A stretch of 64,000 nucleotides of DNA from Solirubrobacteraceae bacterium (lineage in GTDB: Bacteria; Actinomycetota; Thermoleophilia; Solirubrobacterales; Solirubrobacteraceae). Shown one piece after another: positions 41,359 to 52,494 of the stretch. The stretch lies in NCBI GenBank assembly GCA_030447275.1, contig JAUJPF010000006.1, forward strand, positions 62,001 through 126,000, given 5' to 3'. The translations under genes and the position numbers were made by a program. The notes below the pieces were generated by a model. The model ran no database searches, had not been told where the DNA came from, and saw nothing but the letters and a program-made list of their open reading frames with translations. Each line of letters starts with the position of its first letter. Positions within the stretch are counted from its first letter, which is position 1.

Positions 41359-42777
41359 ATGCGGGTAAGTCGTCACTCACAATCACCCGGCTGGACCCTC
41401 GCCGTCGTCTCGGCCGCGCTCTTCATGGTCACGCTCGACAACCTCGTCGTGACGACGGCCCTGCCGAGCATCCGCGCCGACCTCGGCGCGTCGATCGAGG
41501 ACCTCGAATGGACGGTCAACGCGTACACGCTGTCGTTCGCGGTCCTCCTGCTCACCGGCGCCGCGCTCGGCGACCGCTTCGGCCGGCGCCGGATGTTCAT
41601 CCTCGGCCTCGCCGCGTTCACGCTCGCGAGCGCCGCGGCGGCGGTCGCGCCGAGCACCGCCGCGCTGATCGCCGCGCGCGGCCTCCAGGGCGCCGCCGCG
41701 GCGATTGTGGCGCCGCTCACCCTCACGCTGCTCTCCGAGGCCTTCCCGGCCGCCAAGCGCGGCATCGCGCTCGGCATCTGGTCGGGCGTCTCCGGCCTCG
41801 GCGTGGCCATCGGGCCGCTCGTCGGCGGCGCCGTCGTCGAGGGGCTCTCGTGGCAGTGGATCTTCTGGCTCAACGTCCCGGTCGGCCTGCTGCTCCTGCC
41901 GATCGCGGCCCGGCGTCTCGCGGAGAGCATCGGTCCGGCGCGCCGGCTCGACCTGCGCGGGGTCGGCCTCGCGTCCGCCGGTCTGCTCGGCGTGACCTAC
42001 GGCATCGTCCGCGGGAACGCGCTCGGGTGGGGGAGCGCGGAGATCGTCGCGTCCCTCGCCGCGGGCGCCGCGCTGCTCGTCGCGTTCCTGCGCTGGGAGG
42101 CGCGCACGCCGGAGCCCGTCCTGCCGTTGCGGTTCTTCCGCAGCCGCGGGTTCGCCGCGACGAGCGGCGTGTCGCTGGCGATGTCGTTCGGCATCTTCGG
42201 CTCGATCTTCCTGCTCGCCCAGTTCTTCCAGGTCGTGCAGGGGTACTCGCCGCTCGAGGCGGGCCTGCGGACGCTGCCGTGGACGGGGATGCCGATGCTC
42301 GTCGCGCCGATCGCCGGCCTGCTCAGCGACCGCATCGGGAGCCGCCCGCTGATGTCGACCGGGCTCGCGCTCCAGGCGATCGCCGTCGTGTGGCTGGGCT
42401 CGACGCTCGAGGTCGGGCAGGCCTACTCGACCTTCGTGATCCCGTTCGTGCTCGGCGGGGCGGGGATGGCGCTCGTGTTCGCGCCGGCCGCGAACGCGGT
42501 CCTGCGGGCGGTCCGCCCGGAGGAGGCCGGCCAGGCGTCGGGCGCGAACAACGCGATCCGCGAGCTCGGCGGCGTCATGGGCGTGGCCGTGCTCGCCGCG
42601 GTGTTCACGGCGCACGGCGGCTACGCGAGCCCGCAGGACTTCGTCGCCGGCGTCGTCCCGGCGATGTGGGTGGGCGCCGCGGTCCTCGCCGCCGGCTCGC
42701 TCACCGCGCTCCTGATCCCGGGGATCAGGAGCGAGAGCCGCGGGGCTTTCGCGCCCGCGACGACGACGGCGGCTTAG
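41359..42777 (+). CDS. MFS drug exporter (DHA2, 14-helix)
   Basis: A 472-residue proton-driven efflux protein of the EmrB/QacA type. Motif D1 (LDNLVVTTALPSIRADLG), WTVNAYTLSFAVLLLTGAAL and motif A GDRFGRRRMF are present, with about 14 hydrophobic segments. It probably exports toxic organic compounds and is repressed through the upstream palindrome. Its last 53 bp overlap the end of the convergent signalling gene. Confidence 0.92.
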   Translation: MRVSRHSQSPGWTLAVVSAALFMVTLDNLVVTTALPSIRADLGASIEDLEWTVNAYTLSFAVLLLTGAALGDRFGRRRMFILGLAAFTLASAAAAVAPSTAALIAARGLQGAAAAIVAPLTLTLLSEAFPAAKRGIALGIWSGVSGLGVAIGPLVGGAVVEGLSWQWIFWLNVPVGLLLLPIAARRLAESIGPARRLDLRGVGLASAGLLGVTYGIVRGNALGWGSAEIVASLAAGAALLVAFLRWEARTPEPVLPLRFFRSRGFAATSGVSLAMSFGIFGSIFLLAQFFQVVQGYSPLEAGLRTLPWTGMPMLVAPIAGLLSDRIGSRPLMSTGLALQAIAVVWLGSTLEVGQAYSTFVIPFVLGGAGMALVFAPAANAVLRAVRPEEAGQASGANNAIRELGGVMGVAVLAAVFTAHGGYASPQDFVAGVVPAMWVGAAVLAAGSLTALLIPGIRSESRGAFAPATTTAA

Positions 42778-49500: not shown

Positions 49501-52494
49501 TTGACGATGTCCTTGAGCTCCGCGACCTCGCCGCGGGCCTGGACGGTGATCTGCCGCGTCAGGTCGCCCTGCGTCACCGCGGCCGACACGTCCTTGATCG
49601 CGCGGACCTGCGTGGTCAAATTGCCGGCGAGCTGGTTGACGTTCTCGGTCAGGTCGCGCCACGTGCCGCTGACGCCCTCGACCTCGGCCTGGCCGCCGAG
49701 CTGCCCCTCGGTGCCGACCTCGCGGGCGACGCGCGTGACCTCGGCCGCGAACGACGAGAGCTGGTCGACCATCCGGTTGATCGTGTCGGCGAGCGCCGCG
49801 ACCTCGCCGCGGGCCTCGACCGTGACCTTCTGCGACAGGTCGCCGTCGGCGACCGCCGTCGTCACGTGCGCGATCGACCGGACCTGGTCGGTCAGGTTCG
49901 ACGCCATGCCGTTCACCGACTCGGTGAGGTCGCGCCACGTGCCCGAGACGCCCTTGACGTCGGCCTGGCCGCCGAGGACGCCCTCGGTGCCGACCTCGCG
50001 GGCGACGCGGGTGACCTCCGCGGCGAACGACGAGAGCTGGTCGACCATCCGGTTGATCGTGTCGGCCAGCGCCGCGACCTCGCCGCGGGCCTCGACCGTG
50101 ACCTTGCGCGAGAGGTCGCCGTCGGCGACCGCGGTCGTCACCTCCGCGATCTGCCGGACCTGGTCGGTGAGGTTCGACGCCATGCCGTTCACCGACTCGG
50201 TGAGCGCCTTCCACGTGCCGCTCACGCCCTCGACCTCGGCCTGGCCGCCGAGCTTGCCCTCGGTGCCGACCTCGCGGGCGACGCGGGTGACCTCGCCGGC
50301 AAACGAGCGCAGGCGGTCGACCATCGTGTTCAGCGTGTCCGCGAGCGCGGCGACCTCGCCGCGGGCCTCGACGGTGATCTTGCCCGAGAGGTCGCCGTTG
50401 GCGACCGCGGTGGTGACCGCGGCGATCGAGCGGACCTGGTCGGTCAGGTTCGACGCCATGCCGTTCACCGACTCGGTCAGGTCGCGCCAGGTGCCGGAGA
50501 CGCCCTTGACGTCGGCCTGGCCGCCCAGCACGCCCTCGGTGCCGACCTCGCGGGCGACGCGGGTGACCTCGGCGGCGAACGACGAGAGCTGGTCGACCAT
50601 CCGGTTGATCGTGTCGGCGAGCGCGGCGACCTCGCCGCGGGCCTCGACCGTGACCTTCTGCGTCAGGTCGCCGTCGGCGACCGCGGTGGTGACGTTGGCG
50701 ATCTGGCGGACCTGGTCGGTCAGGTTGGACGCCATGCCGTTCACCGACTCGGTGAGGTCGCGCCACGTGCCGCTGACGCCCTTGACGTCGGCCTGCCCGC
50801 CGAGCTGACCCTCGGTGCCGACCTCGCGGGCGACGCGCGTGACCTCGTCGGCGAACGACGACAGCTGGTCGACCATCGTGTTCATCGTTCGCTTGAGCTC
50901 GGCGATCTCGCCGCGCGCCTCGACGGTGATCTTCTGCGAGAGGTCGCCGTTGGCGACCGCGGTGGTGACGTGGGCGATGTTGCGGACCTGGTCGGTCAGG
51001 TTGGACGCCATGCCGTTCACCGAGTCGGTGAGGTCCTTCCACGTGCCCGCGGCTCCCGGCACGTCGGCCTGGCCGCCGAGGACGCCCTCGGTACCCACCT
51101 CGCGCGCCACGCCGGTCACCTGGTCGGCGAACGTGCGCAGGGTCTCGACCATCGAGTTGATCGTCTCGGCGAGCTCGGCGACCTCGCCCTTGGTCTCGAC
51201 CGTGACCTTCTGCGTCAGGTCGCCGTTGGCGACCGCGGTGGTGACGACGGCGATCTGGCGCACCTGGTCGGTCAGGTTCGTCGCCATGCCGTTCACCGAC
51301 TCGGTCAGGTCCTTCCACGTGCCCGACGCGCCCGGCACGTCGGCCTGGCCGCCGAGGACGCCCTCGGTGCCCACCTCGCGGGCCACGCCCGTCACCTGGT
51401 CCGCGAACGTGCGCAGCGTCTCGGTCATCGAGTTGATCGTGTCGGCGAGCGCGGCGACCTCGCCGCGGGCCTCGACGGTGACCTTTCTGCGTCAGGTCGC
51501 CGTTGGCGACCGCGGTGGTGACGTTGGCGATCTGGCGGACCTGGTCGGTGAGGTTCGACGCCATGCCGTTCACCGACTCGGTGAGGTCGCGCCACGTGCC
51601 GCTGACGCCCTTGACCTCGGCCTGGCCGCCGAGGACGCCCTCGGTGCCGACCTCGCGCGCCACGCGCGTGACCTCGTCGGCGAACGACGAGCTGGTCGAC
51701 CATCGTGTTGATCGTGTTCTTCAGCTCGAGGATCTCGCCGCGCGCGTCGACGGTGATCTTCTGCGACAGGTCGCCGTTGGCGACCGCGGTCGTGACCTGG
51801 GCGATCTGACGGACCTGGGTGGTCAGGTTGCCGGCCATGCCGTTCACCGAGTCGGTGAGGTCCTTCCACGTGCCGGAGACGCCCTTGACCCGGGCCTGGC
51901 CGCCGAGCTGGCCCTCGGTGCCCACCTCGCGGGCGACGCGGGTGACCTCGTCGGCGAACGAGAGGAAGCTGGTCGACCATCGTGTTGACCGTGGTGCCGA
52001 TCCGGGCGAACTCGCCCTTGACCGGCTGGCCCTCGATGGTCATCGCCATCTTTCTCGTGAGGTCGCCGCGCGCCACGGCCTCCATCACGAGCGCGACCTC
52101 GGTCGACGGGCGGATGAGGTCGTCGATGCTGGTTGACCGACTCGACGCCGTCCTCCCAGGAGCCGCCGAGGTTCGCGAGCGACGCGCGCTCGGTCATGCG
52201 GCCCTCGCGGCCGACGATCCGGCCGACGCGATCGAGCTCGCGCGTCATGGCCTGGTTGCGCTCGACCAGCGAGTTGAACGCCCGCTGGAGGTCGCCGACG
52301 AGATCGGTGCGCCGGGCACGGAGGCGCACGCTGAAGTCACCGTCAGCGGCCTGGTTCAGGGCGGCGAGCAGGTCTTCGAGCGCACGCTCGTCGACTGCAC
52401 CCGCCGTTGGTCGCGCCCGCGGCCGTGCCGCCGCGGTCGTCTTCTTGTCGGCGGGCGACTTGCGCGTCGCGCCGCTCCGAGCACCTGCAGCCAC
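46593..52494 (-). CDS. Soluble hybrid histidine kinase with nine-unit HAMP array and three receivers (frameshifted)
   Basis: A kinase of about 1966 residues with no membrane segment. An N-terminal HAMP-like region ([20 protein letters not shown]) is followed by nine 92-residue units, each with [12 protein letters not shown]...LGG and ...[15 protein letters not shown] domain (about 49.5-49.0 kb), a long Gln/Glu coiled coil and HisKA ([10 protein letters not shown], His codon 48612-48614) follow. HATPase ([20 protein letters not shown]) comes next, then three receivers. The first receiver is degenerate; the second (VLDLKLP) and third ([13 protein letters not shown]) are intact. GGAGGA at 52501-52506 supports GTG 52494. 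Four indels (near 52135, 51965, 51690, 51484) break the first 1 kb. It heads the operon. Confidence 0.88.
49465..51948 (-). repeat. Nine tandem 276-bp repeats encoding HAMP units
   Basis: The codons for VTxVAREVG recur every 276 bp, at about 51947, 51672, 51396, 51120, 50844, 50568, 50292, 50016 and 49740. The DNA copies are nearly identical over long stretches, including GGTCAGGTTCGACGCCATGC-type blocks. The near identity suggests recent duplication or ongoing gene conversion. It also makes this stretch prone to assembly collapse. Confidence 0.92.

Follow-up and report, generated by a model that had tools for sequence, protein, structure and literature searches.

The operon and its products

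In the current study, we characterized an operon of four genes in a 64-kb stretch of DNA (the window) from a Solirubrobacteraceae bacterium, whose own assembly (here G000) is a 97-contig draft of 3.94 Mb that is 78.4% complete. The genes lie on the minus strand between positions 52494 and 42725 and encode, in that order, a hybrid histidine kinase, a CheR-type methyltransferase, a CheB-type methylesterase and a response regulator. The stop of the kinase gene at 46593 directly abuts the start of the CheR gene at 46592 (gap 0), the CheR and CheB genes share 4 bases, and the CheB and regulator genes share 1 base. These joints and the Pfam domains of the products bear out the original prediction of four tightly packed minus-strand genes. 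Ten flanking open reading frames (ORFs) were also scanned with Pfam; eight matched, none with a signalling domain. An MFS transporter, a thiolase and an M17 peptidase lie on one side, and a methylmalonyl-CoA mutase, a B12-binding domain, ETF, PTE and a release factor on the other.

The kinase (46593..52494) is an RsbK-like hybrid with poly-HAMP and GAF input and three receivers (REC domains). In its unbroken part, Pfam detects HAMP and HAMP_2 (7 stretches each), GAF, HisKA, HATPase_c and three Response_reg domains. GDL/GDF motifs at 52341, 52067, 51775, 51501, 51224, 50948, 50672, 50396, 50120, 49844 and 49568, spaced by 274-292 bp, mark eleven HAMP repeats of ~92 residues each (49500..52400, limits approximate), where nine units had been counted originally. 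A GAF domain follows (48981..49403; Pfam GAF_2, residues 676-816 of P0003), and then a coiled coil, or signalling helix, leading to the HisKA and HATPase_c core (47964..48641) with its phospho-His codon at 48612-48614, and finally the three receivers (46599..47741, limits approximate). The coil, the proposed target of CheR and CheB, had been placed at about 48.6-49.0 kb. It is indeed present, and coordinates together with a 10-kinase alignment narrow it to ~48.65-48.95 kb (48650..48950), with seven Glu-Glu pairs between 48675 and 48899. In a simple scan, the mean hydropathy over 19 residues peaks at 1.81 in the unbroken frame, vs. 2.68 in a Paenibacillus RsbK-type kinase, so the protein looks soluble. 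Many HAMP units, no membrane helix, and a kinase core with receivers are also what defines Group III poly-HAMP hybrid kinases in PMC7643160.

The kinase had been described as one open frame from 52494. Instead, the continuous, ATG-started ORF spans 46593-51428, and the stretch from 51428 to 52494, which belongs to the kinase by homology and holds the first four HAMP repeats, contains four frame changes within ~650 bp (~52.13-51.48 kb), all clustered among the near-identical HAMP repeats. In the sister species G087 and G165, which belong to the same family and were both seen whole, the kinase is a single uninterrupted frame of 1958 and 1967 amino acids; in some other relatives, e.g., G176 and G154, it too falls in more than one frame. 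Four breaks in so short a stretch, with two sister species intact, could mean that the window holds a cluster of decaying pseudogenes. We regard this as very unlikely, because the remaining three genes, like 1611 codons of the kinase, are open and conserved, and because the breaks are confined to near-identical repeats in a 97-contig draft, where errors are likely. Sequence error seems likelier than mutation as their source.

The CheR protein (45771..46592) carries the Pfam domains CheR_N and CheR and aligns with the solved CheR structures 5ftw and 1af7. In a quick tree of 91 CheRs (34 kinase-linked and 57 other, taking every fourth locus from named genomes and omitting some loci and short pieces), the two kinds form separate groups, with 2 label changes; one of the rows counted as linked is a CheB-CheR fusion whose only tie is a shared locus. 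The window CheR groups with the kinase-linked branch. The CheB protein (45199..45774) consists of a CheB_methylest domain without a receiver and is the only CheB match in G000. It aligns across the solved catalytic domain of CheB 1chd, including the positions of the triad, which we take to be Ser, His and Asp. The RsbY-like regulator (42725..45199, 824 amino acids from its start codon) combines Response_reg, PAS, GAF, SpoIIE (PP2C) and HATPase_c_2 domains, the last of these an RsbW-type ATPase.

Kinship with stress modules and conservation of gene order

In Bacillus cereus, the CheR-type protein RsbM methylates the S-helix of the hybrid kinase RsbK, and loss of either RsbM or the receiver of RsbK renders sigma-B constitutive, methylation being inhibitory (PMC4574943). 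The REC-PP2C protein RsbY acts on RsbV and thereby frees sigma-B (PMC4574943, PMC10950880, PMC12848376, PMC3788345); BC1006-1007-1008 correspond to rsbY, cheR and rsbK. As many as 127 RsbK-like kinases in 10 phyla are cited in PMC4574943. The window operon resembles this module in having a hybrid GAF-S-helix kinase, an adjacent CheR of the kinase-linked branch and a REC-PP2C regulator. In contrast, B. cereus RsbK has a membrane CHASE3 input and one receiver, RsbW is a separate protein and no cognate CheB is present, whereas the window kinase has a soluble poly-HAMP input and three receivers, its RsbW-type domain is fused to the phosphatase and a CheB accompanies CheR. Given this homology, the operon should work as RsbK-RsbM-RsbY plus an esterase. 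We therefore consider it probably a stress module of this type with its own methylesterase, in which CheR and CheB would reversibly methylate the coil and bias a sigma switch.

Other systems share parts of this architecture. The cfcABCDE cluster of Pseudomonas putida likewise joins a hybrid GAF kinase to CheB and CheR in a non-chemotaxis setting, and a chemotaxis role of its CheB and CheR has been ruled out; unlike the window operon, it has a CHASE3 membrane input, an output in c-di-GMP through CfcR and no PP2C (PMC4951495). Caution is warranted, as unpublished results cited in the same paper indicate that mutants in the other cfc genes retain the tested phenotype. AskA and AskB of Myxococcus xanthus and the Nik1-like group III kinases are soluble poly-HAMP hybrids like the window kinase, but the account of them has 0 occurrences of CheR and CheB (PMC7643160). 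RsfS-RsfR of Mycobacterium smegmatis similarly pairs a kinase with a REC-PP2C protein acting on an anti-sigma antagonist, but the kinase is non-hybrid with a CHASE3 input, and the paper states that there is no RsbM homologue (PMC10950880). CheR and CheB directly downstream of multi-REC kinases were noted in 2016, with no mechanism, PP2C output or coil analysis in the passages concerned (PMC5108060). A further candidate parallel, PMC11481889, proved not to be one.

The original prediction called for the gene order to be conserved in relatives, and this it is. Among 200 genomes of the class, 82 had a CheR match (80 over cut-off); we took 40 CheR regions, 39 of them from relatives and mostly chosen for short CheR frames, and 12 regions around kinases, a subset of the CheRs of the class. 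Kinase, CheR and CheB follow one another in 12 other class genomes (G011, G087, G165, G124, G184, G154, G156, G178, G039, G182, G141, and G176). The regulator is REC-PAS-GAF-PP2C-RsbW in the window and in G011, G087 and G165, and REC-HisKA-HATPase in G184, G154, G156, G178, G039, G182, G141 and G176; none was detected at the G124 cluster. Outside the class, seven members of the phylum have CheR beside the kinase, and CheB is there too in six (G208, G229, G520, G235, G247, and G267), the contig of the seventh, G262, ending after CheR. A REC-HisKA frame and a REC-PP2C frame both lie downstream in G520. Since regulator types differ among relatives with the same three genes, the kinase-CheR-CheB core is conserved and the output swapped.

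A scan of named genomes with a CheR alignment extends this linkage. It covered the best 80 of 589 confirmed relatives among the matches listed, and its counts are not prevalences; 79 loci were parsed (all except L144) with domain models built from the window domains, which may miss distant PP2Cs. In 70 of the 80 loci, CheR has a coil-bearing hybrid kinase nearby on its own strand; five loci are cut by contig ends and four show no kinase. The parsed loci span ten phyla, in nine of which a kinase lies beside CheR. Poly-HAMP kinases occur in four loci, namely in Lyngbya and in one metagenome-assembled genome each of Gemmatimonadota, Syntrophobacterales and Polyangiaceae. Together with the 12 class genomes, the 70 loci argue that the operon arrangement is not due to chance.

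CheB accompanies CheR in 0 of 19 loci from Bacillota vs. 55 of 60 others, and a PP2C is present in the locus in 12 of 19 vs. 0 of 60. The Bacillota count for CheB, and the fact that B. cereus RsbM operates with no cognate esterase (PMC4574943), would suit an alternative in which CheR by itself is what matters, serving as a constant brake through methylation, and CheB takes no active part in the switch. We consider this quite unlikely for the window, given the near-constant company of CheB outside the Bacillota and the alignment of the window CheB over the whole catalytic domain. Cognate CheB combined with PP2C output was seen in only five genomes, all from the phylum of the window: the window itself, three sister species and one further member. 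The combination was not seen in the 79 parsed named loci.

In five class genomes (G118, G197, G077, G007, and G173), a REC-PP2C regulator comes after a poly-HAMP kinase without an intervening CheR or CheB. The regulator frame has an RsbW-type domain in four of the five, none being detected in G197. Neither CheR nor CheB has a match anywhere in the G118 and G173 genomes, while the other three have them elsewhere. The cheR-cheB pair thus looks like an optional tuning cassette. As a side observation, the f30 genomes (e.g., G315, G524, and G527) are large and hold several short-coil poly-HAMP GAF kinases each, with almost no CheR in the genome.

Chemoreceptors and the composition of the coil

Neither a methyl-accepting chemotaxis protein (MCP) nor CheW had originally been seen in the sequence, and this holds for the whole G000 assembly: the MCPsignal and CheW models each gave 0 matches, with 7 of 14 control genomes positive for each, and CheA was probed only through its CheW-type domain. 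Because G000 is only 78.4% complete, absence is not proven. A canonical chemosensory cluster was rejected on these counts. Of the 12 cluster genomes, G000 included, two (G152 and G138) have contigs that stop short of the kinase. CheW was not found in 11 of the 12. MCPsignal had no match in 10, one match below cut-off in G138 and seven matches in G124, so that nine of the 11 other cluster genomes share the lack of a match with G000. Several of the 11 without an MCP over cut-off are at least 90% complete.

These data bear on the possibility that CheR and CheB act on another protein, either an unassembled chemoreceptor or a different target, and that their place in the operon reflects co-regulation only. 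The incompleteness of G000 and the seven MCPs of G124 leave room for it, as does a report that CheR methylates PhoP, which is not a receptor (PMC8546571). The lack of MCPs over cut-off in 11 of 12 cluster genomes, the linkage of kinase and CheR across many phyla, the RsbK/RsbM precedent and a coil composition that goes with CheR all speak against it, and we consider action on another protein unlikely.

Coil composition was analysed with the GAF-coil-HisKA alignment of 10 kinases, which was searched against the 200 class genomes (20 matched) and 396 phylum genomes (39 matched, 6 shared). The resulting set held 53 genomes with one kinase each, further copies (several in f30 genomes) being dropped; 20 kinases lie beside CheR and 33 do not, G487 among the latter being unmeasurable (n = 32). 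From a fixed anchor to the phospho-His, coils of linked kinases measure 114 residues in 15 cases, 107 in 2 and 86 in 3, and those of unlinked kinases 79 residues in 10, 86 in 21 and 114 in 1, the lengths differing by whole heptads. Glu-Glu pairs, a measure picked after the sequences had been viewed, number 4-11 per coil in linked kinases vs. 1-4 in unlinked ones (Mann-Whitney p 3.6e-9 for 19 vs. 32, G235 being unread by the script and relatedness ignored). At an equal coil length of 86, the three linked kinases have 5, 5 and 6 pairs and the 21 unlinked ones 1-4. In all five families that hold both kinds, the linked kinases are the richer, and the linked kinases G208, G247 and G267 keep the EEL repeat in a short coil. 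The 66 measurable CheR-linked kinases from the best 80 of 589 named relatives have 1-9 pairs, with a median of 6. In the single pair of the tree comparison that rests on well-supported branches, the direction for Glu-Glu was never reversed, and that for coil length was reversed in a few of 200 pairings.

The methylation sites of RsbK are reportedly E439 and E446 (Chen 2012). With this numbering, Glu stands at H-66 and H-59 in 12 of 12 short-coil Bacillota kinases. The window coil has Leu at H-66 and Glu at H-59, and since coils differ by whole heptads, site equivalence with RsbK is not fixed. The phospho-His of RsbK is H505 (PMC4574943). Large CheR frames beside CheB (L015, L017, L020, L023-L027, and L073) also contain, behind CheR, a coil that the kinase-coil query picked up; this could reflect a chance resemblance between coiled coils or a helix type in common.

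A number of observations weigh against methylation of the coil as part of a sigma switch. That the coil is methylated, at which sites and with what sign, is something we infer, as are phosphotransfer, the STAS and sigma targets and the stimulus. The strict MCP pattern of CheR-consensus Glu sites, in its E. coli form, has 0 matches in the coil and 0 in the whole unbroken kinase, so that sites of the MCP type are not supported; a looser E. coli-type version gave 0 in the coil and 2 in the kinase, and a Thermotoga-like one 1 in the coil. When relatedness is counted, the labels change 5 times; the best tree yields 5 independent pairs and well-supported branches yield 1, and with so few independent CheR transitions a sign test cannot reach significance. 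QQ, QE and EL dipeptides are enriched in linked coils as well; it is therefore the whole EELQxQQEEL repeat, not Glu-Glu alone, that goes with CheR. Two of the 66 named CheR-linked kinases fall below 4 pairs, with only 1 and 3, and G173 has a long coil with 4 pairs and no CheR, which might reflect a recent loss of CheR. Kinase-PP2C modules lacking CheR and CheB mean that the pathway can exist without methylation, which is dispensable there. G124 holds the cluster together with seven MCPs and CheW. Finally, no sigma or STAS gene was found beside the window operon among the ten flanking ORFs, and G000 has other CheR-like ORFs at one further place, on contig C82. There (L072, 4218-10243), a GGDEF-HD-REC frame, a divergent CheR, a CHASE3-HAMP-GAF histidine kinase and a second weak CheR-like frame are consecutive, perhaps another kinase-methyltransferase pairing.

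A possible adaptation loop

The proposal that CheR and CheB act on the kinase coil and that the PP2C/RsbW protein drives a sigma switch nevertheless gains from the RsbK/RsbM/RsbY precedent and from the association of Glu-Glu pairs with CheR, although not in its MCP-type sites. HAMP units, named originally as alternative targets, are not favoured, with no evidence either way. In the scheme that we prefer, the soluble poly-HAMP/GAF hybrid kinase would sense some internal state and phosphorylate the regulator on its REC domain; the PP2C and RsbW-type domains of the regulator would set the phosphorylation of STAS-type anti-sigma antagonists and in this way free or hold a SigB/F-type sigma factor. 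CheR would methylate Glu residues in the EEL heptads of the GAF-HisKA coil, biasing the kinase (toward OFF, if it behaves as B. cereus RsbK), and CheB would strip the methyl groups, so that the bias could be reset.

Candidate partners for this output are present in G000, with 13 STAS matches and 17 matches to the SigB/F/G model, two of them over cut-off. In G087 (L054, 16-3441) and G165 (L055, 16178-18071), of the sister genus, the kinase is preceded by a SigB/F/G-type sigma gene, from which a Phage_holin_3_6 gene separates it; a DUF1360 gene comes before the sigma gene, and all lie on the operon strand. In G087, a catalase gene is located still further upstream. This neighbourhood, of which no counterpart was found at the window, fits a stress role.

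Methylation and demethylation of the helix preceding the H-box are said to have been proposed by de Been in 2011 for RsbK-type kinases, including those of actinobacteria, and this makes our reading less novel. This kind of system is already published, and the scheme is less novel than the original prediction implied. What is new is the variant with poly-HAMP input, a cognate CheB and a PP2C fused to an RsbW-type domain, together with the association of the coil with CheR. In the literature searched, outside which most subscription papers lie, we recognised no description of CheB with a PP2C sigma-switch output; we do not claim that it is unpublished.

More tentatively, the operon may amount to a complete adaptation loop without chemoreceptors, in which CheR would place methyl marks on a ladder of Glu-Glu heptads and CheB would remove them, giving the sigma switch an adjustable set point, and lineages gain or lose cheR-cheB together with whole heptads of the coil. 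In B. cereus, release of the RsbK-RsbM methyl brake is unexplained, since no cognate esterase for RsbM is described there (PMC4574943). Modules that keep CheB, some of them with PP2C output, beside cassette-free sister modules make it possible to ask directly whether stress signalling that lacks chemoreceptors shows chemotaxis-like adaptation.

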